Made by a program: the position numbers and the translations under genes. From an uncultured Coriobacteriia bacterium (lineage in GTDB: Bacteria > Actinomycetota > Coriobacteriia > Anaerosomatales > PALSA-660), in NCBI GenBank assembly GCA_903831865.1, contig CAIKZH010000003.1:1-58150 (forward strand): 58,150 nt of DNA, read 5' to 3'. Shown here in pieces: positions 29,331-58,150 of this stretch (positions within the stretch are counted from its first letter, which is position 1; every line of letters starts with the position of its first letter). The notes beneath the pieces are model-generated. The model was given only the letters and a program-made list of their open reading frames with translations. It was not told the origin of the DNA and did no database searches.

Positions 29331-29361
29331 GCTCTTCCTCGTCCTCTCTTGCTGCCGGTTC

Positions 29362-32507: not shown

Positions 32508-33253
32508 GCGGCCCCCTTGAAGTCTGACGCGTACCACTTTTCGGACGCCTCGGAGTCCTTCCGTCTTGCCACCATCCGGTGGATCGCTGATTGTGAGACG
32601 CCCATGGCGCGCGCTATCGATGCCTGAGACGCCCCCGCCTCCAGCATCTCCAGCGCCCGGAGTTCATCGGCGTCCCTCAAGGCGCGGGGATGGCCTATCC
32701 TCGGCTCTCGCATCGCCCATCTGGCCATCTGGCGGGACAGGGCGTCGCAAGACACGCCGACCGCTTCGGCTGCATCCTGCAGCCGCATGCCGCTCTCGTA
32801 CATGGCGGCCGCCCGACGGTATTTCGGCTCGTACTCTCTCGCGACCGCCTCACGCTGGCGGCGGGACGCCGATCTACGCTGATCGTCGGTGAAGTTGGCC
32901 CTGGCACGGGCTGCGCACGCAGCGCGCTCTTCTTCAGTGAGCCTGCGAGTCTGCCGAGGAGCGGGGCTCGTTCTATGACGTTCCGCTTTCGCTCCTTGAC
33001 CCTGTGGAAGGTGCGACGTGTTGTCTCGGAGCCGCATTTCGTCCGACAACTCCGACGAGCAGAGTGGCGTCGTGTACGGCAGGTGGGCCGCTTCCCGCAA
33101 GTCGTCGGCGCTGATCCCGTGGGCGAGGTGCGCATGCACGGCGAGAGACCTCCACCCCGCGCGCCCACAGATCGGGCACTCCTGAGCTTCGATACACGCC
33201 CGCACCTGTTCGGGACTCCCGAGGTTGTGGTGAGCGGTTCGCTCTGCGTCCAT
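32504..33253 (-). CDS. Zinc-finger (Ros/MucR-like) + multiple HTH protein
   Basis: CPICGRAGWRSLAVHAHLAHGISADDLREAAHLP; two HTH segments. Confidence 0.6.
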   Translation of the reverse strand: MDAERTAHHNLGSPEQVRACIEAQECPICGRAGWRSLAVHAHLAHGISADDLREAAHLPYTTPLCSSELSDEMRLRDNTSHLPQGQGAKAERHRTSPAPRQTRRLTEEERAACAARARANFTDDQRRSASRRQREAVAREYEPKYRRAAAMYESGMRLQDAAEAVGVSCDALSRQMARWAMREPRIGHPRALRDADELRALEMLEAGASQASIARAMGVSQSAIHRMVARRKDSEASEKWYASDFKGAA

Positions 33254-33383
33254 CTTCGTTAGATCACACCGCGCATCGTGCTTCGAACGTCGGTTCTTGG
33301 CGCATTGGCTCGGCCCGTGCAGGGGATTAAGCGTCACGACTCCTCCTCCGCTCCTTCGGACGCGTGCGCTTTCCCGAAGCCCC

Positions 33384-33605
33384 TCACCTGGTCACACTGC
33401 CTTGCTCACGCCACTTGCGGAGCATCCCGGAGACGTAGCGGGTGTTCATGTCTTTGCCACGCTTGGCTGCCTCGTCGATCGCCTGCTCGGTGTTGCCCAT
33501 GCCGTAGACGCGCAACCATCGCGCGACCCACGACCACTCGCCATCGGTCAGGTCTCGCCCGACGAATCCGTCCCAGTACGACCGCTCCAGCTTCCCGTCG
33601 CTCAC
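33384..33605 (-). CDS. Hypothetical phage protein
   Basis: Operon position. Confidence 0.4.
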   Translation of the reverse strand: MSDGKLERSYWDGFVGRDLTDGEWSWVARWLRVYGMGNTEQAIDEAAKRGKDMNTRYVSGMLRKWREQGSVTR

Positions 33606-34266
33606 GCTCGCGCCTCCTGTTGCGTCTCGGCCTTGAGGATGTGGGCGATGAGCCGCATGTTGCCCGGCTCGCCCTGAACGGCCGCCTGCCCGATCGCCTG
33701 CTTGGTCGCCTCTTCACCGAACGCCCTGCACCACTTCACGATCGAGCGGATCTCGTCGGGCTTGGCATCGCGGCGAAGTTTCTCCTCGAAGTACGAGCGC
33801 ACCGGGTGAGGGGCTTCTGTCTCGCGTGCTATCGACAAGACCTTGTCTCTTGAAGGTGAAGGCGTAGGAGAAGGTGAAAGAGAAAGAGAAGCGGCGTTGT
33901 CCGCTGCTTCCCGCTGTTCTTCGCTGTTGAGCGGCGGGCGCCGCTTGTCGGCGTGGATGTTGGACTGATAGCTGTAGAAGGACGCGGGTGGAAGGTAGAT
34001 GACCTCAGCTCCGCGATCCCACAGTTCCAGCAGTCCGGCGTCCTCGATGATCGCGAGCGCCTCTTCGACGTCCTTCGGCGTCTTGTCTCGGCGGTACGGG
34101 CATACCAGGGCGAGCAGGCGCTTCGGGCAGCCCGTGATGGTGGCGTCCTCTTCGACGTGCGGGATCATCCACGTGTAGAGCAACGCCGCGAAGTCGCTGC
34201 GCTGCGCGACGGCGTCGACCTTCTCGTCCAGGGAGATGTCGGTCGAGATGTTCCGGCGCCGGCTCA
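33602..34266 (-). CDS. Phage replisome-organizer-like protein
   Basis: N-terminal wHTH region RRNISTDISLDEKVDAVAQRSDFAALLYTWMIPHVEEDATI. Confidence 0.55.
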
Positions 34267-34404
34267 CGACTCGCTCCCGCAGCGGGCGATGAGCGTCTCG
34301 GCGTCCGGATAGCAGACCATCGGAGCCGTGAGCCGATCGCCCTCGACGTCCCAAGGCTTGTCGAGGACGCTCAGGTCGTCGATCTGCAGGACGCGTTCAG
34401 GCAC
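34264..34404 (-). CDS. Hypothetical small phage protein
   Basis: Short ORF between overlapping genes; GTG start. Confidence 0.35.
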   Translation of the reverse strand: MPERVLQIDDLSVLDKPWDVEGDRLTAPMVCYPDAETLIARCGSES

Positions 34405-34406
34405 GA

Positions 34407-34625
34407 CTACGGCTTGGACTTGATGGCGCTGACGATGCCCTCGGCCACGTGCAAGACCGTGCGATAGGCGCCGTAGACGACGGGGATGACGCCGGCGAGC
34501 GTCATGGCGTCGGCCTGGACGGGCACGCTCGCGGGGATGATCTTGAGCGCGACGGCGGCCGACAGCACCGCGAAGAGCAGCATGAACCAGAACGACGTGC
34601 TTTGAGTGCCGGGACCGACTTGCAT
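34407..34625 (-). CDS. Small membrane protein
   Basis: Two hydrophobic segments. Confidence 0.4.
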   Translation of the reverse strand: MQVGPGTQSTSFWFMLLFAVLSAAVALKIIPASVPVQADAMTLAGVIPVVYGAYRTVLHVAEGIVSAIKSKP

Positions 34626-34750
34626 GGGGACCTCCAGATGCGGTGAGCCGATGGGTCGCTAAATGGCCGCGGCACCGCCTCCTCGCGGACTCCGCCGCAC
34701 GAACGCGCCGCAGAAATCTGCGAGCCTGCATTCGCGCGACATCGCAGTGC

Positions 34751-35104
34751 TCACAGCAGCCGCCCGACTACCCACGCTGCGGCGATCTCAGGCGGCAGAT
34801 CGTCGTGGGGCCTCGAGCTCGGCGGGTCGAACTTCGACAAACGCATCGGAACCTTCCCGGCAAGGTCGGGATAGCGGCCGACGAGGATGCGCGCGAGCGG
34901 ACCGCTGTAGCTGTTGTCGACCGCGTACGGGCTGCCATCGCGGTCGAGGTGACACTCGTCCCTGAGCCGCTCGATCCCCTTCTTGACGCGCGGAGTCTTG
35001 TGGTCAGCGATGGCCTCACGCAGCCACTTCACCAAGAGCGCTTCTGCGTCCGGGTTTGCATCCAGCCACGAGTGCGCGCGAATCATGGCGTCGGGGCGAC
35101 TCAC
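34751..35104 (-). CDS. Hypothetical phage protein
   Basis: Overlaps RuvC-like gene stop; GTG start. Confidence 0.4.
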   Translation of the reverse strand: MSRPDAMIRAHSWLDANPDAEALLVKWLREAIADHKTPRVKKGIERLRDECHLDRDGSPYAVDNSYSGPLARILVGRYPDLAGKVPMRLSKFDPPSSRPHDDLPPEIAAAWVVGRLL

Positions 35105-35595
35105 CGGCGTGTCTTCTGCATCGCGAGGTAGTGGAGACCGTGCGCGGCCGCGCTCCGCAGGTGTTCGTTGCGCAGCACCTCGTCTCCCGGACAGATGCCG
35201 TGCTGTCCCAGGGCCCAGAGCCGCATCGCCTGCGCGTAGGCGGTCATGACCGTCTCCGGGTCCTGCCACACGATCTCGCCGGAGTCCGTGAGCGAGCGCA
35301 GGACGGGCACGAGCAGCCCGACCGTGAGCGGAGTCGTCCAGCGGTTCTTCGCCGCGCGCAGATGACCGGGGATGTCCTTGTACGACTCGCAGGCGAGCAC
35401 ATCGGCACGCGGCCACTCCGCGGTAGCCTCGGCAATCTCGGCGGCCATGTGCTCGACTCGCGTCACGCAGGGACCGAACTGGGGACAGGTCGCTCCGGCC
35501 TTGGAGCGGACGGTGAGGGCGCGCGCGACACGGCGGCCCTCGAACAGCACGAGGCCGGTGTTGGCGAGACCGGGGTCGATGGCGAGAAGGTTCAT
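35101..35595 (-). CDS. RuvC-like Holliday junction resolvase/nuclease fold protein
   Basis: MNLLAIDPGLANTGLVLFEG ... ACESYKD. Confidence 0.65.
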   Translation of the reverse strand: MNLLAIDPGLANTGLVLFEGRRVARALTVRSKAGATCPQFGPCVTRVEHMAAEIAEATAEWPRADVLACESYKDIPGHLRAAKNRWTTPLTVGLLVPVLRSLTDSGEIVWQDPETVMTAYAQAMRLWALGQHGICPGDEVLRNEHLRSAAAHGLHYLAMQKTRR

Positions 35596-35747
35596 CGGCC
35601 CCTCACATCGAGCGCCTCGGCGATGCCAAGAATCGCGGACTCGCCTGAGAGCCCGATGCCCGCGGTGTCGTCGAGCACGCAGGTGACCTGGGACCGGCAG
35701 GACCGGCCGCCGAAACCGATTCCAAACCCGACGCGAGAGGCGGTCAT
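35592..35747 (-). CDS. Hypothetical small phage protein
   Basis: Overlaps both neighbours. Confidence 0.35.
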   Translation of the reverse strand: MTASRVGFGIGFGGRSCRSQVTCVLDDTAGIGLSGESAILGIAEALDVRGR

Positions 35748-36643
35748 GACCGCGACCCCTCACCGGGCCACGTCACTTCCGGATCCGCGTCGGTGGCGAC
35801 GCGCTCATCCTTCGGCGCGATTCCGTCCAGGACCGTGGCAGCCTGCTCGGCGGTAAGGTCCTTGGCGGCGCGCACATGGAAGCGCGTATTGAGCGCGCTG
35901 CGCAAAGCAGGGACGCTCCTGCCCGACGCCTTCCAAATCCGCTCGATGGCGGCGATCTGGTCTGATGATGCGAGCTGGACCGCGGTGAGCGGGACGTCGC
36001 TCAGGTCCTCGATGTCCTGCGTGAAGATGTCTGAGGCGGCGGTGGCCGAGAGAATGGCCGCGATGAAGGCGCGCTTCTGCGCCATCTTCAGCACCGTGTT
36101 GTAGTTGTCGGCCGGATTGTCGTGCTCGACCTTCTCGCCGGCGACGACGATCTCCCATGTGCCGGTGTCCGGGTTCTTCTTGGTGGAGTGGCCCCGGCCT
36201 CCCAGGAGCGCGATCGCCTCAGCCTGCTTGTCCTTGCGCAGATCCCAGTAGGCGGGCGGGACCGGCTCGCCGGTGAAGGTGACCTCGCCGGTGCGGAATC
36301 GGTACTTGCCCTCCTTGGTGGAGCAGGATCCCATCGCGTCGCCGACGACCTGTCCGGTGACCAGCGACGTGAGCGTGCAGGTCAGGACGTAATCGCGGTG
36401 GTCGTTATCGAGCTTCTCGACGTCGCGGTGATAGCTCGGCGCGAGGCGGAAGGTCATGGCGAGCTTCTCGGCGCCGGGCTTGAGCAGGCTGGGCTTGTCG
36501 CCGCACCCGGGGATCTTGCCGTAGTGCTCACCCTCGTGCATGACGCCCGCCATGACCTGCTGGATGAGCGCGACTTGCGCGATGATGTCGGCGGGAGTCA
36601 GCACCTCGTGCTGACAGATCGCGAGAGCGGTGTCCTCGCTCAT
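35744..36643 (-). CDS. Conserved phage early protein
   Basis: 299 aa, MHEGEHYGKIPGCGDKPSLLKPGAEKLAMTFRLAP. Confidence 0.55.
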   Translation of the reverse strand: MSEDTALAICQHEVLTPADIIAQVALIQQVMAGVMHEGEHYGKIPGCGDKPSLLKPGAEKLAMTFRLAPSYHRDVEKLDNDHRDYVLTCTLTSLVTGQVVGDAMGSCSTKEGKYRFRTGEVTFTGEPVPPAYWDLRKDKQAEAIALLGGRGHSTKKNPDTGTWEIVVAGEKVEHDNPADNYNTVLKMAQKRAFIAAILSATAASDIFTQDIEDLSDVPLTAVQLASSDQIAAIERIWKASGRSVPALRSALNTRFHVRAAKDLTAEQAATVLDGIAPKDERVATDADPEVTWPGEGSRS

Positions 36644-36894
36644 CGCGCGCAGCCCGGACCAGCGGCTTTGGCTGCGGAAACCGGACTGCTGAGCGAGATG
36701 AGCAGTTCCGATGGCGGCACGCCGAAGGCTTCGGCGACGCGCCGGATCGTTGTCCGAGAGACTCTGCGGCCGGCGAGAAGCTGTGCCAGCGTGACACGGT
36801 TCACGCCTGACGCCGTGACGAGGTCCGCCAGGTTCCAGCAGCGCTCGTCGATGAGCGCCCTAACGCGCGCCACTGAGATTTCGGGGGCCTTCAC
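36640..36894 (-). CDS. Cro/C1-type HTH regulator
   Basis: NLADLVTASGVNRVTLAQLLAGRRVSRTTIRRVAEAFGVPPSELL. Confidence 0.75.
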   Translation of the reverse strand: MKAPEISVARVRALIDERCWNLADLVTASGVNRVTLAQLLAGRRVSRTTIRRVAEAFGVPPSELLISLSSPVSAAKAAGPGCAR

Positions 36895-37086
36895 AGATCT
36901 GCCTCCCACTCCATGTGCTCGTCGGCAGTCGTGTCGAGCCACCGAACGAACCCGCTCTTGGGGATGCGGATGGTCCGACCAAATCTGTGATAGGGGACGT
37001 TCTTTGACCTGATGAGCCCGTACAGGTAGTTCTTGGAGACGCCGATTGCCTTCGCCGCCTCACCGACCGAGTACTCGAGTTCCATG
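36891..37086 (-). CDS. Excisionase/MerR-type HTH protein
   Basis: YSVGEAAKAIGVSKNYLYGLIRSKNVPYHRFGRTIRIPKSGFVRWL. Confidence 0.75.
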
Positions 37087-37188
37087 GTATGGCGCTTTCT
37101 CTCACTCGGTAGCACTTCCGGCCGCTATGTAACCACTCCGGGTTGCACCACACAAGGGTTCGGTTCAGATTAGGTCATGCAAATGTCA

Positions 37189-37221
37189 GTCACCGGGTGT
37201 ACCTTATTTGCACCGGGTGAC
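37189..37221. promoter_or_regulatory. Candidate operator: GTCACCGGGTG-N11-CACCGGGTGAC
   Basis: Near-perfect inverted repeat in divergent intergenic region between excisionase and repressor-like genes. Confidence 0.5.
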
Positions 37222-37254
37222 CTATAGAGCTAGAATCCGCATCGAGGGAGACGA

Positions 37255-37641
37255 ATGGAGCCAGAAGCGCGGGTTGTCCTGTCCATCGACGAAGAGGCGT
37301 ACATGGCGGATCAGAAAGGGCTTCGGGCGGCATCGAGGCTGAAAGCGACGACGGTCTACATGCTCGACCTGCCCGAACTCGGATATCGAATCCAGAAGGC
37401 GCGTATCAACCGGCGGTACCCCACCGCGGCGGCCATGAAGAGAGCACTCGACGATTGGTGCTCGGCGCACGGGATGCCGTCGCTATCGATCGGGATGGTC
37501 CACCGACTCGAGACAGGTAAGCGCCCCCTGTCGGCCGACGAGATCCTGATGTTTGAAGAGGTGCTCAAGCCGGAGGGCGGGCCGGCGTACTTCCTGCCGA
37601 AGATCGGCGAGAGCGAACCGGACTGTCAGCCGGGCGACTGA
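37255..37641 (+). CDS. HTH repressor-like protein
   Basis: Divergent from excisionase, upstream of integrase; GMVHRLETGKRPLSADEILMFEEVL. Confidence 0.5.
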   Translation: MEPEARVVLSIDEEAYMADQKGLRAASRLKATTVYMLDLPELGYRIQKARINRRYPTAAAMKRALDDWCSAHGMPSLSIGMVHRLETGKRPLSADEILMFEEVLKPEGGPAYFLPKIGESEPDCQPGD

Positions 37642-37642
37642 G

Positions 37643-38803
37643 GTGACCCGCCGCGCTCTCGGATCCCGCGTGGAGGTTTCACCGGGGCTCCATCGTCTCC
37701 GCGTTCCATGTGAGCCCGACCCGGAAACGGGGCGGCGCCGGGAGATTGATCGGCACTTTAGAGGCAGCGCGCGCGAGGCGGACCAGGAGCTCGCGCGCAT
37801 GCTGTCCGCCGAGGGTCACGCAGGCCCGCCCTCGGCCATCGCCTTGAAGGAGTACCTGGAGCAGCGGTATCTGCCCTGGGCCGAGGGACGGCTCCGGCGG
37901 ACCACGATGGCCGGCTACCGAAGCGTTGTCAGGATCCACGTCGTTCCTCGACTCGGGTCCCTAAGGCTCTCGAAGGTCACGCCGCATGTCATCGACATGT
38001 GGGTCGCGCGCATGCTCCGGGAAAAGGTGAAGGATCAGACTCGCAACCACGCCTACGTGGTGCTCCGCACGGCCCTCAGGCAGGCCGTCGCCTGGGGGAT
38101 GCTGCCCTCCGATCCGACCGTTGGGACGCGTGCGCCGAACGTGCCCGAACGCGACTTGGTGACGCTGGACATCGACCAAGCGAACAGGTACCTCGACGCC
38201 TTCGCGGGGACTGCGTGCGAACTCGCGGTCGTGATCGCTTTGGGAGTGGGGCTGCGTCGGAGCGAGGCGTGCGCTCTGCAGTGGAGCGACCTGAAGCTCG
38301 TGGCGCCGACGGGCGACGCCCCCGCATCAGGAGCGGTCACGATTACCAAGGCTCGCCACCAGTATGGCCGGGAGGTCTGGACGACCGAGCCGAAGTCGAA
38401 GAGCAGCCGCCGGGCGCTCTTGCTCGCCCCTTGGGTGGTCGAGGCGCTGCTGCCGCACCGCGGACTCGGGCCTGTGGTCTCCATGGCGCCGGACGAACTC
38501 ACCCGCGCCTACCGCAAGACGATCAAGACATTCAACGCGGAGCACACCAAGACGCCCCTGCCCTACGTTCCGTTCCGCGATCTGCGCAATGCGCATGGCA
38601 GCATCATGGTCGACCTCGGAGAGGGCACGAAGGCGATTGCCGACTACTACGGACATGAGACGTCGGAGGTAACCGAGCGAAGGTACATCCGTCCGCACCT
38701 GGCGGTCCAGGAGCGCTACGTCGCGACCGTCCAGAGGATGCGACACTCCCCGCAAAGTCCCGCAACCGAGGGGGACGAGAGGGTATCGGCGGGGACGGAA
38801 TAG
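37643..38803 (+). CDS. int: Tyrosine recombinase/integrase
   Basis: ALGVGLRRSEACALQWSDL, PFRDLRNAHGSIM, YYGHETSEVTERRYI. Confidence 0.85.
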   Translation: MTRRALGSRVEVSPGLHRLRVPCEPDPETGRRREIDRHFRGSAREADQELARMLSAEGHAGPPSAIALKEYLEQRYLPWAEGRLRRTTMAGYRSVVRIHVVPRLGSLRLSKVTPHVIDMWVARMLREKVKDQTRNHAYVVLRTALRQAVAWGMLPSDPTVGTRAPNVPERDLVTLDIDQANRYLDAFAGTACELAVVIALGVGLRRSEACALQWSDLKLVAPTGDAPASGAVTITKARHQYGREVWTTEPKSKSSRRALLLAPWVVEALLPHRGLGPVVSMAPDELTRAYRKTIKTFNAEHTKTPLPYVPFRDLRNAHGSIMVDLGEGTKAIADYYGHETSEVTERRYIRPHLAVQERYVATVQRMRHSPQSPATEGDERVSAGTE

Positions 38804-38865
38804 CTGCCGTGAGCCCCTTTGACCTGCGGTTTCGTCTCCCCTCGTCCCCCGCTGTCACCCCCACG

Positions 38866-38915
38866 GCGGTTTCCTAAACCATGTGCCGCAGGTTCGAATC
38901 CTGCCGGGGGCACCA
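38866..38915 (+). other. 3' half of tRNA-Arg(CCT): probable att junction (attL/attR)
   Basis: GGTTTCCTAAACC...GCCGCAGGTTCGAATCCTGCCGGGGGCACCA: T-arm, acceptor 3' strand and CCA present; no D-arm or matching 5' acceptor strand upstream. Confidence 0.85.
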
Positions 38916-39067
38916 CGCCTGACCTGCTGTTTCTCCGGAATCAGGCTCCGGATTCGAGGCCCGAGATGCCCCTTTGGGCACACTCCGGGCACACAACACG
39001 GTGCATCCAGACGACGCTGGACGCCTCTTTGCGCAGTTCAGCGCCTGCATCGGCACAAGCAGCCGCA

Positions 39068-39514
39068 CTACCCGCGTCGGTGTCCCTGCGACCGGGAGTC
39101 TGTGCTCTGCAGGTGCTGCAGGACGCACGATCGACAGATGTCGGGCACACGGTCGCTGCCGTGGTGCCTCCTCAAAGCGTTGCCATACGCCTCCCGCATG
39201 GAGTCGGCGTTCCGGTAGGGGTGCAAGCCGTGACCGGCGTTCCAATCGTGCTGGAGTGCGGCCCATGACGCGTCCGGGTCGGCGGCGCGCCTCTGCTCAA
39301 CAAACTGCACCATCTCAGCGACGAACGGGCGCGGCCGACGATGACGCACGGTTCGGGCGCGGCACTGAGGACTGCGGTTGTCGAAGTGACCCTGACCATC
39401 GAGCGCTCGATCGGGAGCGAAGGGACACGGGCTGACCGATGCGAGCACAGCCGCGGCCTCTTCCAGAGTGCGCTTGAGGCGGTGGGCCTGATCTCGATGC
39501 GTCTCTTCCCTCAT
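39068..39514 (-). CDS. Hypothetical protein
   Basis: VAEMVQFVEQRRAADPDASWAALQHDWNAGHGLHPYRNADSMREAYGNAL looks protein-like. Confidence 0.4.
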   Translation of the reverse strand: MREETHRDQAHRLKRTLEEAAAVLASVSPCPFAPDRALDGQGHFDNRSPQCRARTVRHRRPRPFVAEMVQFVEQRRAADPDASWAALQHDWNAGHGLHPYRNADSMREAYGNALRRHHGSDRVPDICRSCVLQHLQSTDSRSQGHRRG

Positions 39515-39582
39515 TGCTCCCCAGCCGTTCGTCTGCCAACCGTGTCTGCGAAGCCTAGCACCGCGAGAGGGCGCGGCAGGAG

Positions 39583-40770
39583 CTAGGCGCCGCTCGCCGC
39601 CTCTTTGCGCAGCTCAGCGCGTGCAACGGCGCGAGCCTCGGCCAGCTTCGCGACTGCATCCGCCTGCATGCCGGGCAGCAGGTGTCCATACACACTCAGG
39701 GTGAACCCCGCCGATGAGTGACCGAGCCTCTCCTGCACGACCTTCGCCGGCGCCCCCGTCCTGATGAGCTGGCTGGCGTGTGAGTGCCGCAGATCGTGGA
39801 AGCGCACATGCACGCCGACGTGGCGACAGAAGACGTGGTACGCCTGCGAGAACTTCGAGGGAGGCCAGGGATCGCCGGTGTCTCCGGCGCACACAAGGTG
39901 GTTCTCGTGCCATGCCTCCCCCAGCGCCAACCGGCGCTCCTTCTGCCGACGTCGATGCGCTGCCAGCTCTTTGAGCGTGTCGGCATCCAGCGGCAAGGCC
40001 CTCCTGCTCGCGGCCGACTTCGGCTGCCTAAACACGAGCCCGGTGCTGGGCTCCTGAAGCGTCCGACTCACGGTGAGCACGCCGGCCTTGGTGTCGAGAT
40101 CCGACCACCGAAGACCCAGGACCTCTCCACGCCGCAGTCCCGCGTTGGCAGCGAGCAGCACTGCCGCATAGAGGCTCAGGTGCCCGTCTTCCTTGGCCGA
40201 GGCGAGGAGGCGCTCGGTGGCCACCTCATCGATCGCCTTCATCTCGATATGCCGCGCTCTCGGAGCGTCCAGGCGATCACAGGGGTTGACCACGAGGATG
40301 CCGACGCGCACCGCGCGGCCCAGAGCCGCCCGCAACACACGGTGATGAGAGAGCACGGTGCGAGCCGATAGTCCTCCCTCACCCTTGGCCCGGCCACTGG
40401 TGAGCTCCTCGGTGTAGTAGCGCTGGATCCGGGTGGGCGTGAGCTGGTTCAGGCGCACGGAACCGAGCGCCGGGACGAGCCGCTTGTCCACGATCTGCCG
40501 GTAGCCGTCCAGGGTGTAGGGCGCCACGCTGGGTGCGGCGTAGTCCTTCATCCATGTGGCGAGCCACTCGCCCACCGTCATCCGCGACGGCTCGGCGTAG
40601 GAGCCGGTGTCGAGCCCGTGCAGCAGCGCGGTGAGCGCGGACTGCGCCTCACGCTTGGTGACCGCGTGCACCGTGTGGTAGTCGAAGAGCTGCCGCCCCG
40701 CCTCGTCGCGACCCCGAAAGATCCGGGCCTGCCAGGTGTCGGGCGACTTGCGGCGCAGCAGCCCTCTCAT
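39583..40770 (-). CDS. int: Second tyrosine recombinase/integrase
   Basis: LAANAGLRRGEVLGLRWSDL, FHDLRHSHASQLI, RLGHSSAGFTLSVYGHLL. Confidence 0.9.
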   Translation of the reverse strand: MRGLLRRKSPDTWQARIFRGRDEAGRQLFDYHTVHAVTKREAQSALTALLHGLDTGSYAEPSRMTVGEWLATWMKDYAAPSVAPYTLDGYRQIVDKRLVPALGSVRLNQLTPTRIQRYYTEELTSGRAKGEGGLSARTVLSHHRVLRAALGRAVRVGILVVNPCDRLDAPRARHIEMKAIDEVATERLLASAKEDGHLSLYAAVLLAANAGLRRGEVLGLRWSDLDTKAGVLTVSRTLQEPSTGLVFRQPKSAASRRALPLDADTLKELAAHRRRQKERRLALGEAWHENHLVCAGDTGDPWPPSKFSQAYHVFCRHVGVHVRFHDLRHSHASQLIRTGAPAKVVQERLGHSSAGFTLSVYGHLLPGMQADAVAKLAEARAVARAELRKEAASGA

Positions 40771-41663
40771 GACGTGGCGCCCGCTCCCTCCGAGTTGCCC
40801 GCGTCCTTCTGGCCCCTGCGGTAGATGCGCTGACGACATCTCTCGCTGCACCAGTCCCGACTCGCTCTCGCCCCCGTCGCGTCCCAGGGAAGCCCGCAGC
40901 CCTCGCAGGTGCGGTAGTCGCGGTTGCCGTCGATCGCGAGCGCGAGCTGCAACCACATCGCACCCAGAAGCGAACCGACCCGATAGGTCAGGCGCAGCCC
41001 CGCGCCGTAGGACTTGTTCGTGGCAGCGAGAGCGGGCGTGACATCCGCGTGCTTGAGGCCCTGGTTCACCTCGCTTGCCAGCATCGCCTGCACGATCTCG
41101 CGGTCGCTGCTGCTGGCGTCCACGATCAGTAGGCAGGAGTCCATGAGCTCGCCCTTCCAGCACTGCGGCGGGCCATTGGGATAGATGCCGAGCTCATCTC
41201 CCACGCGACGTGTCTCCCACATGCGTTCGATCAGCTCTGAGGGATTGCCGCCTCGCAGCTCGTCCCACATCTCGATGGCGAGCGCCACGCTCTCGCGCGC
41301 CTCGCCCCAGTCATCCTCGTCTCCCGCGTAGCCCTCAGGCAGGCCGCGCGCGGTCTTTGAGATCCTGTCGGGCAGAGGGTCGAGACTCCCATAGGCGCGC
41401 GCGAAGTCCGCGAACGCCTCGGGGGTGTCCTCGATCGCCGCGAAGATCCGGAACAGCGCCGGCTCATCTTTGAGCGGCGCGTAGGACTCGCCCTCGACGC
41501 CCACGAGCGCGACGGAGTCGCCGGCCGGAACAGCAACCTTGCCGTGCTGCGAGGCCCCGTGGTGAAGCGTCTTCCACTCCGCTTCCTGCAGCCGATGCCA
41601 CCGGAATGAGACCAGCTCCGCGATCGCCGGTTCCTGTCGCGCAAGTGTCACAGTATTGCTCAC
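40767..41663 (-). CDS. Integrase-associated protein with C-terminal zinc finger
   Basis: CEGCGLPWDATGARASRDWCSERCRQRIYRR. Confidence 0.55.
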   Translation of the reverse strand: MSNTVTLARQEPAIAELVSFRWHRLQEAEWKTLHHGASQHGKVAVPAGDSVALVGVEGESYAPLKDEPALFRIFAAIEDTPEAFADFARAYGSLDPLPDRISKTARGLPEGYAGDEDDWGEARESVALAIEMWDELRGGNPSELIERMWETRRVGDELGIYPNGPPQCWKGELMDSCLLIVDASSSDREIVQAMLASEVNQGLKHADVTPALAATNKSYGAGLRLTYRVGSLLGAMWLQLALAIDGNRDYRTCEGCGLPWDATGARASRDWCSERCRQRIYRRGQKDAGNSEGAGATS

Positions 41664-41673
41664 CTCATACTGT
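41650..41673. promoter_or_regulatory. Candidate operator ACAGTAT-N10-ATACTGT
   Basis: Perfect 7-bp inverted repeat overlapping the GTG start of 40767-41663, facing the Xre gene. Confidence 0.55.
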
Positions 41674-41746
41674 TGTTGTGTCCGTCGAGCGCATCATACA
41701 CTGGACGTGGCCTAGGCGAGAAGTCAAATGAGGAAAGGAAGTCGCG

Positions 41747-41962
41747 ATGCTCCGGCTCGAAAGGGAAAGGGTGCGTGCGGGACTGAGCCGCTCGGCACTC
41801 GCGCGTCTCGCTCTGATGCACTCGGCCACGGTCGGACAGATCGAGAACGGCTACATCGGGCGCCCCTACCCCGTGCAGCTCGCCAAGCTCGCGAGTGCGC
41901 TCATGTTCGAAGGTGAGCCGGCAGATCTGCTGGACCAGGTGCGCGCAGATGACGACGAGTAG
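41747..41962 (+). CDS. Xre-family HTH protein
   Basis: RERVRAGLSRSALARLALMHSATVGQIENG. Confidence 0.75.
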   Translation: MLRLERERVRAGLSRSALARLALMHSATVGQIENGYIGRPYPVQLAKLASALMFEGEPADLLDQVRADDDE

Positions 41963-42179
41963 CGCACCGAAGCTCGAGGATCTGCCTGACGTGATCCCCG
42001 TAAAGACGGTAGCCGCCTTCCTCGGGTGCGCGGAGAACACCTGCTACGCCGCGATACGGGCCGGCGCGCTGCCGGCCGTGAGACTCGGCCGTCGGCTGCT
42101 CGTGCCGAAGGCGAGCCTGATGCGCTTCCTTCACGGCACAACGCACACCGAGTCCACGATCGACACACAAGGCCGATGA
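41947..42179 (+). CDS. Excisionase-like HTH protein
   Basis: VIPVKTVAAFLGCAENTCYAAIRAGALPAVRLGRRLLVPKASLMRFL. Confidence 0.7.
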
Positions 42180-42186
42180 CGCGGCC

Positions 42187-43020
42187 ATGAAGCTCTCGGA
42201 CCGCATGCTTCGAGCCGACGTGTTCACCGACGGTCGCCTGATCCGCGTCTCGCCGGGTGCGCGGCTGCTGGCCATGGTGCTCGATCCGGTTGCTGAGGCC
42301 ACGGGAGTGGTTCGCCGGGACCCCGACGAGATCCGCAGCAGCGCGGCGCTGTTCCTGGCTGACGAGGAGGGCATGCCCCCAACCGCGGAGCAGATCGAGA
42401 AGTGGGTCGAGGAGCTCGTGGCCCGTGGCTGGGCGCTGGCCTATGAAGTCGGGTCCATGCGACTGCTCTACCTGCGGGGATTCGGCGCCCGTCAGAAGGG
42501 CGCCAACGTCTGCATAGGAGTGAGCCAGACCACCGGGGAGATCGAGCAACATCTGCCGACGCCGCCGTGCGTGACACTCGTCCCCCACCATGAGAAGACG
42601 AGGGACAAAGCGGGACACGAGGTGGAGCTGCGGCTTCGCAAGATGCTGCCCCGCCACTGCCAGGACGCGGGTGCCTGCCCGTGTGAGAGGTTCACCAACC
42701 CTTCGCCTACCCACCCCGAACAAGTAAGTAGAGGTAATGGGATTGAACTTGACCTGAGGGCATTTGAAATCCAACCAGATGAAGATGTGGATGGTCATCT
42801 CAGTGAAGGGGAGCGCGAGGGGGAGCTCGACGCGGAGCTTGCGAGACTCTCGGCCGAGTTCGGTCCCGAGATCGCGACGCAGGCGCTCTTCAAGGAACAG
42901 CTCACCTCGAGGAAGTGCGACCCTCCCAGAGCTGTGAGCGCAGCCATGGTTCGAGTGCGATGTGAGGCGCTGGTGCAGCAGGACATAGAAGCAAGGGCGC
43001 ACGGAGAAGGCTTCGGGTGA
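42187..43020 (+). CDS. Replication-associated (replisome-organizer-like) protein
   Basis: Position after excisionase, N-terminal wHTH-like sequence. Confidence 0.45.
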   Translation: MKLSDRMLRADVFTDGRLIRVSPGARLLAMVLDPVAEATGVVRRDPDEIRSSAALFLADEEGMPPTAEQIEKWVEELVARGWALAYEVGSMRLLYLRGFGARQKGANVCIGVSQTTGEIEQHLPTPPCVTLVPHHEKTRDKAGHEVELRLRKMLPRHCQDAGACPCERFTNPSPTHPEQVSRGNGIELDLRAFEIQPDEDVDGHLSEGEREGELDAELARLSAEFGPEIATQALFKEQLTSRKCDPPRAVSAAMVRVRCEALVQQDIEARAHGEGFG

Positions 43021-43208
43021 GCGCGTCGGGCTGCGGTCGCCGGCTCAAGGGGCACCTCTTCCCCGACGGGGCGCGGCGGGAGTGCGATCACGTCGTCGCG
43101 CTCTCGGATGGCGGGTCGAACGCCGGGGAGAACCTGCGCTGCCGTTGCCTGGCCTGCCACTATCCCAAAACCGCGAAGGATCGCGGGGTCCGGGGGCAGG
43201 ACAGGTGA
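43017..43208 (+). CDS. Short HNH endonuclease domain protein, related to 30872-31324
   Basis: GRRLKGHLFPDGARRECDHVVALSDGGSNAGENLRCRCLACHYPKT. Confidence 0.6.
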   Translation: MSASGCGRRLKGHLFPDGARRECDHVVALSDGGSNAGENLRCRCLACHYPKTAKDRGVRGQDR

Positions 43209-43439
43209 GACTCGTTGACGGCGGAGACTGTGAGGCCCATGGTCCGGACATCACCGGCCCCCTGGGGCCGCCGACCTTCTCGTCCGCCGCACGCCGCCGC
43301 GGGCACGCAGGCGCCTCACGAAGCGAGCAGTCGTATCATTTGCTTGCACCGAGTGCTTGTGACCTGCCTCGCGCAGGTCCGCGCGATCCTTGCTAGGCGT
43401 CGTGGGCCGACTTCCTTTCCGGATGCCTGGGGGTATCGG

Positions 43440-45011: not shown

Positions 45012-45941
45012 GTGCAACACACAGGGAGACAGGGGGGCGAAGACTTGGCGAGCACCGCGGGCCTACTGCGGCAGGCGCTCGATGCCGTCACGGACGGACT
45101 TGATAGTCTCATTCGGACCCTGCCCATAAAGGACAATCGCTGGCATGAGCCGGGCATCGTCTATGTCGCCCCGGACTACGCCTGGGGAGACATCGCAGCC
45201 GGCGAGCGCGCCCAACAGCTATCACTCAAGCGCTCCTACGACCTTGTGTCCGAGCGTCTGCGGCTGCTAGTGGCTGGAGCGCCTGAGGAACTAACCCGCC
45301 AGCTTGCGGATGCGGACGTCGCCTTTCGAGTGTGGGTTGAGCTCGACTACTCGAACTGGCACTTGTCGCCCAGCTCTGATTCAAATGTAGAAGCGCTCCG
45401 AGCGGATGCGGCCGCAATCTCAAGAATTCTGGACATCGTTGAACGCCTCGGTGCCGGAGAGACGTTCGCGATTCCGGACACGAATAGCCTGCTGAGGGCG
45501 CCTGACCCTGTCGCCTACCGTGACGTACTTGGGCAGAACGAGTTCACCTTCACTCTCCTGCCGACGGTGCTCGGCGAACTTGATCGGTTGAAGATCGAAC
45601 ACAGGAATCCCGACGTGCGCGACAAGGCCAAAGCCGTGATTGGCCGCATCAAGGGATGGCGCAATCAGGGGACGCTGTCTGCTGGCGTGAAGGTGGATCA
45701 GTCGATTACCGTCCGCGCCCTGCACGCGGAGCCGGACATGAACGACACGCTGTCGTGGCTCGACCCGGCCGTCGACGATGATCGGATCATCGCGGGCGTT
45801 CTCGCAATCCAGGCGGAGCATCCCGGGGCGCGAGCCGTCCTCATAACCGGCGACATCAACCTGATGAACAAGTCGGATGCCGCGCTAGTGGAGACCGCAG
45901 AGGCTCCCCAACGGGCGCGTCCAGCGGACGGCGCAGGCTAG
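45012..45941 (+). CDS. PIN-domain nuclease-like protein (start may be TTG at ~45045)
   Basis: FAIPDTNSLLRAP, LGELDRLK, DDDRIIAGVLAIQ, AVLITGDINLMNKSDAA. Confidence 0.75.
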   Translation: MQHTGRQGGEDLASTAGLLRQALDAVTDGLDSLIRTLPIKDNRWHEPGIVYVAPDYAWGDIAAGERAQQLSLKRSYDLVSERLRLLVAGAPEELTRQLADADVAFRVWVELDYSNWHLSPSSDSNVEALRADAAAISRILDIVERLGAGETFAIPDTNSLLRAPDPVAYRDVLGQNEFTFTLLPTVLGELDRLKIEHRNPDVRDKAKAVIGRIKGWRNQGTLSAGVKVDQSITVRALHAEPDMNDTLSWLDPAVDDDRIIAGVLAIQAEHPGARAVLITGDINLMNKSDAALVETAEAPQRARPADGAG

Positions 45942-45995
45942 GCGAGCGACGAAGAGAAGCGTCGCGGCCCGCCGCAGACGCGCTGACCGTTGGGC
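45906..45995 (+). other. attC: Integron attC-like site 1
   Basis: CCCCAAC ... GCGGACGGCG ... CCGCCGCAGACGCG...GTTGGGC; complementary outer and inner arms; PIN ORF stops inside it. Confidence 0.75.
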
Positions 45996-46056
45996 GGAAT
46001 CGCTGGCCCGTCGTCGGCGTTTCGCAACGGGTCGTTGCAGAAGGAGGTGCGCGGTC

Positions 46057-46518
46057 TTGCAGGCGGCCAGGCGACTGATCGTTCGCGCACTCAACGGGCT
46101 CTGCGGCTTGGTCGACGCGGTCGCTTACCGGCCGGTCGTGGTTCGCTTCGGCAGGCCACTCCCGCACCGCTGGAACTGCAACTTGGCGCGACTCTCGATG
46201 CGGCTGGATGAGCGCTGGGGTACCGGATACTGGAACGGAGACGGTCCGCAGCCGGGGGAGCCGTGCGAGGCGTGCGGCCGGAGGCCGGCGCTGTTCTTCA
46301 TCGGCGGCTACGCGGACGATCCCGACTTGGAAGAGCCCGTTGAGGTGGGCGACGACGACTACTTCTTCGCTCACCGGGAGGTCGCCCTCTGCGGCTGGTG
46401 CAAGCTCCCCCCACACGACGCCCCCTTCGGAAGTGAGGCGGAGTTGCAGCAGGCGCTTCGGGCGGCGGCTGAGAGGTCGACGCGTTGGGGATGGCGCTGG
46501 AGGCCGACTTGGGAGTAG
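46057..46518 (+). CDS. Hypothetical cassette protein with CxxC pairs
   Basis: CEACGRRPALFFIGGY ... ALCGWCKLP; lies exactly between attC-like sites. Confidence 0.65.
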   Translation: MQAARRLIVRALNGLCGLVDAVAYRPVVVRFGRPLPHRWNCNLARLSMRLDERWGTGYWNGDGPQPGEPCEACGRRPALFFIGGYADDPDLEEPVEVGDDDYFFAHREVALCGWCKLPPHDAPFGSEAELQQALRAAAERSTRWGWRWRPTWE

Positions 46519-46547
46519 CTGGGCTCGGCACAGTCTGCGGGAGATCC

Positions 46548-46634
46548 GCCCAACAACCGCATCCTTAGCGGACGGCGTAAGCTGGAGCAAGAAGGAAGTG
46601 CTGTGGTCCGCCGCAGATGCAGACCACGTTGGGC
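46548..46634 (+). other. attC: Integron attC-like site 2
   Basis: GCCCAAC (R'') AACC GCATC (L'') ... AGCGGACGGCG ... GTCCGCCGC A GATGC (L') AGACCAC GTTGGGC (R'); shares internal sequence with site 1. Confidence 0.8.
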
Positions 46635-46653
46635 GTGCCAAAGGGGGGAGCTG

Positions 46654-46929
46654 GTGGACGATTCCAAGTATGAGCGTCGCGTGACGCTGCTCTGCCCGAC
46701 CTGCGGATCAGACCAGTTCGCTTTCGACGATGACGATGAATCCGCTCCAGTGACATGCTCGAACTGCGGTCGTCAGACCACGCGTGAGGCCCTCATCGAG
46801 GAGAACTCCGAAAACATCGAGTCTCACGTTGCCGAGATCGGCGAAGAGGTCGTCGCAGACGCAGCCAAGGACCTGAACAAGTCGCTTCGCGATGCCTTTC
46901 GCGGCAGCAAGAACATCCGGCTTGAGTGA
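46654..46929 (+). CDS. Small zinc-ribbon protein
   Basis: LLCPTCGSDQFAFDDDDESAPVTCSNCGRQ; start 20 nt after attC-like R'. Confidence 0.7.
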   Translation: MDDSKYERRVTLLCPTCGSDQFAFDDDDESAPVTCSNCGRQTTREALIEENSENIESHVAEIGEEVVADAAKDLNKSLRDAFRGSKNIRLE

Positions 46930-47624: not shown

Positions 47625-47897
47625 CTAGTAGTCGAGCGCGTGCCTGCCGGTCGGACTGTTCGAGCAGTTGCCACCTACCTGGCTGGCGTCGGCCCCACAA
47701 AAGACACATCGGCCCGGATTGCCCCCGATGATGTGCCTCTGGGTTGGACTACTGGGGCACGTGCCGCCTACCTGACTGGCGTCAACCCCGCAGAAGCGGC
47801 ACTTTGACGGGTCGCTAATCACATGCCTCCCGGTCGGACTGTTCGAGCAGTTGCCGCCCACCTGACTGTCATCGATGCCGCAATAGACGCATGCCAT
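47625..47897 (-). CDS. Three-fold tandem zinc-knuckle-like small protein
   Basis: Three copies of CxxCGxDxSQVGGxCxxSPTxRH. Confidence 0.75.
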   Translation of the reverse strand: MACVYCGIDDSQVGGNCSNSPTGRHVISDPSKCRFCGVDASQVGGTCPSSPTQRHIIGGNPGRCVFCGADASQVGGNCSNSPTGRHALDY

Positions 47898-52532: not shown

Positions 52533-53052
52533 GGTAGAGCAGTCGCCGACGACGCTGCGATCAGCCCTTCTACCGGGTCGGGGGGCGCACGAGCGAGTAC
52601 GATCGGATTCCGCAAGCGAGGCGAACCGGAAGCGAGCGCCTCCGCGATGGCGACCGCGAACTCCCCCTCGACCTTCTCGGCTTCTGGCGCTGGAGCGCCT
52701 CAGCAGACTACGGCGGCTTCGACGGGGAGCTGGCTCCCATCAACCGCCAACTTGCGGGCTTGAAGCGCAGGCACGAGGAACTTGACACTGTCCTCACGGG
52801 CAAGCTGTGACACCAGCGGGGCGACTCCTCGGCCGTTCTGATCAGCGGCCTTGTCGGGGCAGCCGAACAAGCGCGTCCTGACGCGTCCTGCGAGGCGCAC
52901 AATGGTGGGGGATCCGCGCAGATCACGCGCAACCCGTTCGGCGGAACCGGCGGTCCCGACCGGCGCCAAGTACCGAGGACTCTCCGAAGGGGCAGACTCC
53001 ACCGTTTCGGGCGTTCCCGACCAAGACCCTTTGCGAGACGCGGAGGCCACCA

Positions 53053-54027
53053 GTGGAATCCATGTTGTTTGTGCGCGCCGGCAACGGCAACGAGCTCGTC
53101 GATGACTTCGTCCGGTCCGGGCTCGTCGCGGTCGGCTGGTCGAAGTTCGGAGACCTATCGTCCGTCAAGTCGGCTGCAGACCTGGAGCGCATGCTCCTTC
53201 GGACCTATCCCGATGGCGTGAACGCATCCGGCCGCCCGGCGAAGCTCTACGCCGAGATAGTCCACTTCGCCCTCGAGGCGAAGCCAGGCGACCTTGTCGT
53301 CACCGCCGATGGCAGGCGTCGCCGGCTGATCGTTGGCATGATCGACGGCCCGTACGAGTTCCGGCCCGAGCAGCCGCTGAGTTCCGGCGGGGAGCCGTAT
53401 CGGCACACCCTGCCGGTCTCCTGGACGTTCGCTGTCGCGAGAGACAAGGAAGGCCCGCAATCGTTCCCCGAGACTCGCCAGAGGAGGAAGACGGCCTTCT
53501 GGTTGGGAAGCGACACCGCATCCGCGATCATGAGCGCGCCGAGGATGTCTCTCGCTGCGCATCCGGAGGCGCCCCCGCGCAAGTCCGCTGCTCCCTACCC
53601 GCAGCCCATGGCGGAAGCGCCAGTTGCCAACGGAGCCGATGCTCTGCAAGCGTGGCTGGACCAGAACGAGCGGCTCGCCGAAGTTCTGCCTTCGGAAGAG
53701 CTGGCGGCAAGGGCCGCGGCAGCGAATCCAAATCCGCGAAGGGTCGAGTCAAACGGCGCCACCTTCGTGCGCGATTCGTTCGTGGCGGCGTTCGCGAAAC
53801 AACTTGCCCGCGGCGTGTGCGACCTGTGCGCACAGCCGGCTCCATTCCACTCGATGAACAGGCGACCCTATCTCGAGTCCCATCACGTGCAGTGGCTGTC
53901 TCGTGACGGCCGCGACGCGCTCGACAACGCCGTGGCTCTCTGCCCCAACTGCCACCGCAGGATGCACGTTCGCGACGAGCAGGCGGACATCGAGAAGCTG
54001 CAGAGGAAGATCGCCGCTCGTCCATGA
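53053..54027 (+). CDS. EVE-like N-domain + HNH endonuclease (candidate modification-dependent restriction enzyme)
   Basis: LFVRAGNGNELVDDFVRSGLVAVGW; C-term CDLCAQPAPF...PYLESHHVQWLSRDGRDALDNAVALCPNCHRRMH. Confidence 0.75.
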   Translation: MESMLFVRAGNGNELVDDFVRSGLVAVGWSKFGDLSSVKSAADLERMLLRTYPDGVNASGRPAKLYAEIVHFALEAKPGDLVVTADGRRRRLIVGMIDGPYEFRPEQPLSSGGEPYRHTLPVSWTFAVARDKEGPQSFPETRQRRKTAFWLGSDTASAIMSAPRMSLAAHPEAPPRKSAAPYPQPMAEAPVANGADALQAWLDQNERLAEVLPSEELAARAAAANPNPRRVESNGATFVRDSFVAAFAKQLARGVCDLCAQPAPFHSMNRRPYLESHHVQWLSRDGRDALDNAVALCPNCHRRMHVRDEQADIEKLQRKIAARP

Positions 54028-54030
54028 GCG

Positions 54031-54110
54031 GAGGTGCTCGGGAGAGGCACGTGCCCAGAATGATTCAGCGCCGCGCAGCTGCTCGCGGACCTGAAGGCGC
54101 CGGGGTGAGG
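54031..54110 (+). pseudogene. ~80-bp remnant of the 3' end of the papain-like gene also seen at 28549-29330
   Basis: GATTCAGCGCCGCGCAGCTGCTCGCGGACCTGAAGGCGC matches reverse complement of 28569-28616. Confidence 0.75.
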
Positions 54111-54270
54111 CGTGGACAGGCTGGGCGACGTCACAAGCTCGCTCGACCCCTGGATCACCTGGGGTGGCAAGTGACCAGCGTAGACTGCCTGTGACAACAA
54201 GCCGCGGAGAGCCTGGGAGCACGGTCAGACAGGGCAGCGTTCGGCAAGTACGAACCGACGGGAGGCTCTC

Positions 54271-55818
54271 GTGGTCGTCAAGCTTGGCCTCTTCAACTTC
54301 AAGTCCATCGCAGATCTCGGGGAGCTAGAGCTACGGCCACTCACAGTGCTGTGCGGTCCAAACGCCTCCGGAAAGAGCTCGGTGCTGCAGAGCCTTCTTA
54401 TGCTGAGCCAGACCTTCGAAGGCCCTGCGGTGGATCGAGCGCCCGTTCTGCTCAACGGGCCGCTGGTTCGCCTCGGTAGCTTCAGAGAAGTGGTGCGCGG
54501 CTACGATCTCCAGCTTCCGGTCACGCTGAAGCTCGAGTTCGATGTCGCGGGGCATAACGTGGAGCACGCTCGCCCTGCTCTGTGGGCGGTGGCGGCGGGG
54601 ACGGCGCTCGAAGATGAGGGCGTGGCGTCCATGTGGGACGTTACTAGCCTTGCGTTTGAGGTCACTCTGGCCGCAGCGGAGCACTCTGGCCCGGCCTGGC
54701 AGCGTTTCCCCTTCGTCAGCAGGCTCGCCACTAGAGCGGCCGGCAGCGACGAAGTCTACTTCGAGATGAGCATCGAGCGCCCGGCGCCGGATCAGGTGGC
54801 AACCATACGCTACACGCTGTCTGGCGACGACGGTCCCCGTCGCAACGAGTTCTCAGCTGACGTGACGCTGCACCGGCTGAAGCCAGACGAGGTCGTCCTA
54901 GCCGAAGACCTCGGGGCGTCCTATGCCTCCCGACGTCTTCGGTTCACATCCCCGTTCATGGTGCGAGGTTCATTCGCGTTCAACTTGCGAGGTTCTGACT
55001 TCGGACAGCGAGACATGGATGCTCGGGCGCTGCGTCTGTCCTGCGCCCTCATCGATGTGATTGCTACGGCGCTCGGTCCAACCCTCAAGTACGTGGGCCC
55101 ACTTCGAGCAGAACCGCAAAGCGACTACCCGGTGACGAGCGATGCTGCCGACATCGGGCCTCGCGGCGAGAACGCCGCTCAGGTACTGGCGCAGGAGTAC
55201 AACAGACCGTGCGACCGGCCCCGGCTGGATTCGGACTCGGACGACGTCGAGCAGAACAACTCCACCGTCCTGGAGGAGTTGCAGCACTGGTTTGACGTGA
55301 TGGAACTGGGCAGGCTGCAGGCCGTCGCGTCGGAGACAGGAGTCGAGCTCACGCTGACGTCGAGCGCGACTGGATCTGTGCCCGTCTCTTTGGCAGGGAC
55401 AGGATTCGGCGTGAGCCAGCTGCTTCCCATCTTGCTGCAGGGGCTCAGGATGCAGCCACAGGACACGCTGCTGCTGGAACAGCCGGAGATACACCTGCAC
55501 CCGAAGCTGCAGATGCAGGTCGCCGACTTCCTGATCAGTCTCGCCAAGATCGATCGCTCAGTCGTCGTCGAGACTCACAGCGACCACGTTGTCAGTCGCG
55601 TCGTCCGTCGGATAGTCGAAGGACAGCTGTCTCCCGAGGATGCCGCTATCTACTTCGCACACAACGACGAGCACGGGACCCGCTTTGAGCGTGTCGAAGT
55701 CGACGACGTGTTCGGCATCGTCAACTGGCCGGAAGGGTTCTTCGACCAGGACGCAGATGAGCAAGAGGCCATTCTCCGTGCCTCGCTCAGGCGCCGAGCC
55801 GACACTGGCCGGAACTGA
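54271..55818 (+). CDS. AAA (SMC/OLD-like, DUF3696-type) ATPase
   Basis: Walker A GPNASGKSS; DTLLLEQPEIHLHPKLQMQVADFL; VVETHSDHVVSRV. Confidence 0.85.
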   Translation: MVVKLGLFNFKSIADLGELELRPLTVLCGPNASGKSSVLQSLLMLSQTFEGPAVDRAPVLLNGPLVRLGSFREVVRGYDLQLPVTLKLEFDVAGHNVEHARPALWAVAAGTALEDEGVASMWDVTSLAFEVTLAAAEHSGPAWQRFPFVSRLATRAAGSDEVYFEMSIERPAPDQVATIRYTLSGDDGPRRNEFSADVTLHRLKPDEVVLAEDLGASYASRRLRFTSPFMVRGSFAFNLRGSDFGQRDMDARALRLSCALIDVIATALGPTLKYVGPLRAEPQSDYPVTSDAADIGPRGENAAQVLAQEYNRPCDRPRLDSDSDDVEQNNSTVLEELQHWFDVMELGRLQAVASETGVELTLTSSATGSVPVSLAGTGFGVSQLLPILLQGLRMQPQDTLLLEQPEIHLHPKLQMQVADFLISLAKIDRSVVVETHSDHVVSRVVRRIVEGQLSPEDAAIYFAHNDEHGTRFERVEVDDVFGIVNWPEGFFDQDADEQEAILRASLRRRADTGRN

Positions 55819-57203: not shown

Positions 57204-57506
57204 GTGGCACGACCTTCGAAGTACCCGCCCGAGTTCCGTGAGCGCTGTGTCAGGATCGCCCGGGAGTCCGAGCGCCCGATCGCCGCGGTGGCGCGTGATC
57301 TGGGCATGCACCACGAGACCTTGCGGCTGTGGGTGCGCCAGGACGAGGCCGACGACGGCACGCGCTCGGATCGCCTCACCACCGCCGAGCGCGAGGAGCT
57401 CACGGCTCTGCGGCGCGAGAACCGCGACCTGAAGAGGTCCAACGAGATCCTGAAGGCGGCGAGCGTGTTTTTCGCCCGCGAACTCGACCAGCCCCGTCCG
57501 AGGTGA
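57204..57506 (+). CDS. IS3 transposase orfA
   Basis: PSKYPPEFRERCVRIARES...HETLRLWVRQDE...LRRENRDLKRSNEILKAASVFFARELD. Confidence 0.95.
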   Translation: MARPSKYPPEFRERCVRIARESERPIAAVARDLGMHHETLRLWVRQDEADDGTRSDRLTTAEREELTALRRENRDLKRSNEILKAASVFFARELDQPRPR

Positions 57507-58093
57507 GCGCGTTCGTCGACGCGAATCGCGAGCACTTCGGGGTCGAGCCGATCTGCCGGGAGATAGAGGCTTCCGCGAGTGCGTATAGGGCGAGGCGGAC
57601 CAGACCACCGTCTGCTCGCTCGCTGCGAGACATCCGGTTGCTGGCCGAGATCCGCCGCGTGCACGCTGACTCTGACGGCATCTATGGCCAGTTCAAGATC
57701 TGGGACGAGCTCAACGCCCGGGGCACGACAGTCGCCCGCTGCACCGTCGAGAGGCTGATGCGCGCCCACGGCATCGCGGGAGTCTCCAACGGCCCTGTCT
57801 GCCGCACGACCATCCCCGGCCCGTCTCCCAGCGCCGCTCCCGATCTCGTGCGCCGTGACTTCTCCGCCGATCGCCCCGATCAGGTGTGGCTCTCGGACTT
57901 CACCTACATCCGCACCTGGGAGGGCTGGAGCTACCTGGCCATCGTGCTCGACGTGCACACGAGGCGCATCGTCGGCTGGCAGCTCGCGAGCCACATGCGC
58001 CAGTCGCTCGTCACCGACGCCTTCGACATGGCGCTGTCAGCACGACAGGAGCACGACGGCGGACTCATCGCCCACTCCGACAACGGGAGCCAG
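57503..58093 (+). CDS. IS3 transposase orfB (rve integrase), interrupted after HSDNGSQ
   Basis: WLSDFTYIRTWEGWSYLAIVLDVHTRRIVGWQLA ... HSDNGSQ then non-canonical GEIKRSSQHLE. Confidence 0.9.
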
Positions 58094-58150
58094 GGTGAAA
58101 TCAAGCGGTCGTCGCAACACCTCGAGAGCGAGGAGTTGCGATGGATCGAG
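58094..58150 (+). mobile_element. Probable left end of a second IS (IS30-like appearance)
   Basis: Break in orfB at HSDNGSQ; hairpin CAACACCTCG-AGAG-CGAGGAGTTG followed by ATG at 58141. Confidence 0.45.

Follow-up and report, generated by a model that had tools for sequence, protein, structure and literature searches.

A small CALIN in an uncultured Coriobacteriia bacterium and the integrons of the order Anaerosomatales

The 58,150-nt stretch of DNA analysed here (the window) is the complete contig C3 of a 2.16-Mb genome in 192 contigs from an uncultured Coriobacteriia bacterium. We find that it very probably carries a small CALIN, consisting of two canonical attC sites around one complete gene cassette and a solitary attC, and that the cognate type of integron is resident in the genus. 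The attC site, the CALIN and the integron with inverted intI are already known kinds of element; what is new is their order-wide residence, here in the Anaerosomatales (OPB41).

Results

Predicted attC sites enclose one gene cassette in the window

The features around the sites are given below, with bit scores of the attC covariance model R3.

43017–43208, + strand: HNH gene; a 181-bp stretch has 85% identity with the HNH gene found immediately 5' of intI on contig C89
43215–44936, + strand: GmrSD_N/DUF262-type ORF, 5' of the PIN gene
45012–45941, + strand: gene of a PIN_4-domain protein (PF13638, E=9e-13), stop codon within attC1
45902–45998, + strand: predicted attC1; R'' CCCCAAC at 45906–45912, R' GTTGGGC at 45989–45995; bottom-strand T-N6-G; 59.0 bits, E=1.9e-12
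45990–46628, + strand: one complete gene cassette of 639 bp, from the cleavage point (G^TT) in the attC1 R' box to that in the attC2 R' box
46057–46518, + strand: cassette ORF, 153 aa, no known family, between attC1 and attC2
46544–46637, + strand: predicted attC2; R'' GCCCAAC at 46548–46554, R' GTTGGGC at 46628–46634; T-N8-G; 62.6 bits, E=2.3e-13
46654–46929, + strand: zinc-ribbon protein gene after attC2 (PF08271, weak match), GTG start at 46654
52858–52945, + strand: predicted attC3, solitary and more degenerate; R'' GCCGAAC at 52862–52868, R' GTTCGGC at 52936–52942; 39.9 bits, E=1.6e-7

The outer boxes, the inner arms of attC2 (GCATC/GATGC and GCGG-A-CGG/CCG-CCGC) and the core common to attC1 and attC2 (AGCGGACGGCG...CCGCCGCAGAyGC) all lie where the preliminary description of the window had placed them. 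Its account of the gene layout was equally accurate: the PIN ORF ends inside attC1, an ORF lies exactly between the two sites, and the next gene begins 20 nt after attC2. It had missed attC3, about 6 kb beyond the pair. The attC2 boxes fit RYYYAAC and GTTRRRY exactly, in inverse orientation; the R' box of attC1 fits GTTRRRY, its R'' box deviates from RYYYAAC at base 1, and attC3 has one base of each box off consensus. A search of Rfam at gathering thresholds gave no match.

The cassette limits follow from the established cleavage point of IntI, which sits in the R' box. The PIN_4 gene is probably the gene of the preceding cassette, and the GmrSD_N/DUF262-type ORF may belong to the first cassette; searches for the left end of the PIN cassette, for an attI and for an empty site all found nothing. 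No closing attC was found after the zinc-ribbon gene, which is the last gene of the array. Neither the other 68 genomes of the order nor the plasmid collection yielded a homologue of the 153-aa ORF, which was rejected on these grounds as a candidate shuttling gene. Between the array and attC3, the minus strand (47625–47897) encodes a 90-aa protein with three near-identical repeats of CxxCGxDxSQVGGxCxxSPTxRH, a zinc-ribbon-like tandem repeat.

The pair fits the definition of a CALIN (at least two attC within 4 kb, no intI nearby), with sites about 0.55 kb apart on a contig that lacks intI, and the preliminary description had chosen the right label for C3. One difference from known CALINs is that an intI and an attI are present elsewhere in the same genome.

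The window sites match attC sites of other genomes in sequence and fold

When the genome was searched with the shared core, three further copies were found, on contigs C59, C89 and C172, and the core is near-identical on these contigs and C3. A first covariance model built from five sites (R1) revealed whole arrays (C172 with eight attC, C86 with four) as well as the third site in the window, which brings the genome to at least 17 attC on five contigs. Model R3 was then built from 91 attC sites, all from other genomes so that training on the target was excluded; because the model used to collect these sites had itself been shown those of the window, independence holds for the training rows but not for the search path. 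In the 190 kb searched, R3, which is our own model rather than the published one of IntegronFinder, ranked attC2 first, followed by attC1 and attC3.

The predicted fold is borne out by covariation. Among 62 sites, both sides vary in 20 of 26 pairs, which none of 500 shuffles matched in any measure. Paired cells made up 85.9% of the 62-site alignment, which was fitted to the model and so favours the structure, versus 28–40% when partners were slid by one to three columns. In helix 2 (the L''/L' arms), 97% of the cells are paired, with two-sided changes in five of seven pairs. The usual attC site reads YCTAAC-AA-GCGCATCCAGC...GCTGATGCGC-NNNNN-CGTTAGGC, and its bottom strand has two extrahelical bases on one side, six bases apart. 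This T-N6-G signature is present in 67 of the 91 foreign sites and also in attC1; such an arrangement is described as typical of attC sites that IntI1 excises most readily (PMC3053210). The T-N8-G spacing of attC2, as read from its sequence, results from a TT insertion in L''. The preliminary description had held that the lack of both a covariance-model match and a conserved extrahelical asymmetry would count against attC identity; both were found, and both favour attC.

Ordinary inverted repeats, such as terminators, REP-like elements or IS ends, might mimic attC, given that both strands of the sites fold and that GC-rich sequence commonly holds GC-rich hairpins. We consider this reading highly improbable: it is refuted by the matches to a foreign-trained model at E of about 1e-12, by the near-absence of R3 matches outside the order and by the one-strand arrangement 3' of intI (both described below), and it is also at odds with the covariation and the extrahelical asymmetry. 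As judged from their sequence, 45902–45998 and 46544–46637 are genuine integron attC sites. They have nevertheless drifted somewhat and may be partly decayed, because the left spacer of attC1 is an atypical GG (usually AA) and both sites have A instead of the family's T beside the second extrahelical base, which creates an A.A mismatch. Computed folding of attC2 also gave competing folds, with a mean pairing probability of 0.61 for the R and L stems.

Two integron integrases and attI-like sites lie on other contigs

The preliminary description saw no integron integrase, which holds for contig C3, where the best match to TIGR02249 in the genome search reached 28.4 bits against a cut-off of 265, but not for the genome: two full-length integron integrases scored above this cut-off, with 487.9 bits on C172 and 461 bits on C89. 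The genome-wide search for IntI and further attC that it had proposed thus found both. It had also correctly taken both tyrosine recombinases of the window for phage-type, as both belong to PHROG 1; the one at 39583–41163 scored 30.6 bits with TIGR02249, and no match to that family was listed for the one at 37553–38803. The closest solved chain to the C172 IntI is IntI4 (PDB 2a3v), and the alignment spans nearly the whole length.

Downstream (3') of intI we found a conserved attI-like core, GWCTGTAGAATCATT^GTTAGRC (GTTNG with the upstream consensus GWCTGTAGAATCATT), which was identified by sequence only. It was derived from 35 of 42 loci; as the matrix used had been seeded by eye, the counts lean towards the motif. 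Independently of this seeding, the 5' flanks of intI scored far below the 3' flanks in nearly all loci. A variant form of the core lies 113 nt 3' of intI on C89 and 712 nt on C172. The array on C172 comprises eight attC within about 6.6 kb of intI, and on C89 a single attC follows before the contig ends. Both contigs thus hold the parts of a complete integron, namely intI, an adjacent attI (by sequence) and an adjoining array. The integron on C172 does not fall among the mobile class 1–5 integrons: its IntI scored 390.7 bits against the integron integrase equivalog PRK15417, below the cut-off of 435, the locus is leuCD, and no resistance gene was recognised among the window cassettes. From these sequences, the window cassettes are not orphaned in the cell, as integrases are encoded on other contigs, whose membership in this 192-contig assembly rests on binning and on the common attC core.

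In the C172 array, the final attC has an R' box that reads GTTG before unrelated sequence begins; an IS110-family transposase ORF (L022, C172:1–1430, ORF 1–1194, + strand; NF033542, 239.6 bits) adjoins it. IS1111/IS110-type elements are known to insert into attC, and such an element has probably inserted here. In addition, C59 and C89 share about 86 identical bases near their contig ends (L024:15333–15418 and L023:12040–12126), a run that enters an attC directly in C59 and different sequence in C89; either a rearrangement linked to cassettes or an artefact of assembly would explain it.

Possible origins of the window CALIN

The integron on C172 lies 3' of leuC-leuD-type genes (gene names read from the sequence rather than by family search), and the same position is occupied in two relatives, G002 from its genus and G007 from its family, and in four genomes that belong to another family. 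This shared position makes it likely that the C172 integron occupies a resident chromosomal locus. In the IntI tree, which has many weak forks, the order is not monophyletic and several exchanges are required; the C89 IntI clusters with those of three genomes from the window's family, of which one is in its genus. In G004, a genus-mate, attC of the window type follow a C89-like IntI. On C89 (L023, C89:1–9565), an integrase, RusA, a DnaB helicase and HNH are encoded, and intact intI, attI and attC follow directly 3' of the HNH gene; the contig looks like a phage or phage-derived element.

The surroundings of the CALIN were described earlier as a phage/IS island, which is partly supported. Phage-type integrases, a replication initiator and the HNH gene do lie 5' of the attC sites, and there is an IS3-like transposase (HTH_21, rve; 57329–58150, cut off where the contig ends), but the proteins scanned included no phage structural gene. 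The interval 28000–43210 holds two phage-type integrase modules in opposite orientation (37553–38803, + strand; 39583–41163, – strand), and related HNH stretches occur at 28469, 30905 and 43030. Directly 3' of attC3 (53053–55818) lie defence-type genes, an HNH/type IV restriction-like gene and an NsnB/AriA/OLD-type AAA ATPase.

In integrons, the established substrate of IntI is the folded bottom strand of attC, which it cuts at G^TTRRRY, and the window sites would be recognised in the same way. Excised cassettes would be integrated again at attI, at a different attC or at attG, the secondary sites in the genome; departure of cassettes from the resident array, or loss of intI from an integron, would yield the CALIN observed, and IntI supplied in trans could still mobilise the window cassette. 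Activity of attC1 and attC2, and the route of the cassettes into the island, are inferred.

One candidate route, which is plausible but falls a little short of probable, is that cassettes left the resident array and inserted at an attG, a secondary genomic site with the consensus GWT, which would produce dispersed CALINs and SALINs. Such insertion has been published for integron cassettes (Loot et al. 2024, as cited in PMC12444791), and attC are scattered over many contigs in several relatives (for example C1, C3, C7, C12, C20 and C24 of genome G052). Against it, no empty site was found for comparison, since copies of the HNH flank occurred only within the same genome, and the left junction is undefined. 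Alternatively, the CALIN could be a decayed mobile integron on a phage-like element, arranged as on C89 (HNH, then intI, attI and attC), from which intI was deleted. The related HNH genes 5' of both the C89 intI and the window cassettes point this way, as does a weak attI-like match (GTCCGCGCGATCCTTGCTAGGCG, 43377–43399) between the HNH gene and the first gene. However, the relatedness extends over those 181 bp only, no intI remnant is reported near the sites, and the attI search of the window gave noise-level matches, an equally good one occurring in about 3% of equal-sized segments; we regard this origin as unlikely.

A broader scheme, put forward tentatively and with considerable doubt, is that in this lineage an integron (intI-attI-attC) also travels as cargo of a phage-like integrative element such as C89, and that such elements trade cassettes, including defence-type genes, both with the integron resident at the leuCD locus and with sister elements like that of the window. 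Searches for phage-borne integrons turned up nothing. IMG/VR viral contigs contained 45 IntI relatives, and attC of the window type were absent from them except for one weak match on the opposite strand. In the closest of these relatives (L226, 65%), the intI ORF lies between a host-like gene and phage structural-type ORFs. IMG/VR therefore gave no support for carriage of the integron by phages.

Integrons are widespread in the order Anaerosomatales

An integron was thought at first to be unusual for an actinobacterial-type genome. This does not hold for the order Anaerosomatales, where integrons are nearly universal: attC sites were found in 62 of 69 genomes with model R2 and in 63 with R3. 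At E<=1e-4, R3 matched these 63 of 69 versus 2 of 181 other genomes of the class. Both of the latter belong to one family, and one of them (G061, family f17, of another order) has ten R3 matches and no IntI listed at E<=1e-60, an apparent CALIN that may be a real array. At E<=1e-60, IntI was found in 47 of at most 69 sampled genomes of the order, in none of at least 281 other class members, and in 13 further genomes outside the class in a 397-genome sample of the phylum. Actinomycetota integrases outside the order include L051, L070 and L092, and L051 (palsa_647) has seven attC 3' of intI.

The layout is uniform. At 42 intI loci, 87 of 91 attC lie on the 3' side of intI on the same strand, four lie upstream and none is on the opposite strand. 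The IntI proteins share about 60–75% identity with homologues from Chlorobiota, Desulfobacterota and further phyla. This layout also recurs with IntI relatives in other phyla. Genome G044 has an IntI and 27 attC matches. In many contigs the 3' end of intI lies less than 1 kb from the contig end, which would be expected if assemblies break at variable cassette arrays. Misbinning is no general explanation, because intI also sits within long contigs, among them a 1.84-Mb single-contig genome and contigs of 0.8–1.2 Mb.

A survey of complete genomes with IntegronFinder 2.0 found no complete integrons in Actinobacteria and left the cause of this scarcity unclear; CALINs were likewise reported to be rare in the phylum (PMC9024848). 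Our literature search, in which subscription papers were little covered, returned no report of integrons in OPB41 or Coriobacteriia, and the description of the order OPB41 makes no mention of them. Here is an actinobacterial order in which some nine out of every ten species genomes carry parts of an integron, including cognate attC, a recognisable attI and, for several lineages, a chromosomal locus in common. The question thus shifts from why Actinobacteria cannot host integrons to why only some lineages kept them, and it is testable because the order has cultured type strains.

Comparison with known integrons

The arrangement recalls that in Xanthomonas, where a sedentary integron at the ilvD locus is accompanied by dispersed CALINs (PMC12444791). 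Both have a resident integron beside conserved metabolic genes (in two families here, on the 3' side of leuC-leuD) and CALINs elsewhere; they differ in phylum, and several alternative loci are used across the order. The Xanthomonas-type orientation of intI is also opposite to that in the order studied here.

An atypical intI orientation has been described for the chromosomal integron of Treponema (PMC3607928), and the integrons of this order are like it in having the array on the 3' side of intI and in the same strand. Unlike the Treponema integron, they reside in Actinomycetota, and several members have a toxin-antitoxin-like gene pair between intI and attI. This pair, assigned by eye, is BrnT-like in L022, L143, L145, L149 and L154 and PHD-like in L144 and L150; from its position it would be a fixed part of the integron platform rather than a cassette.
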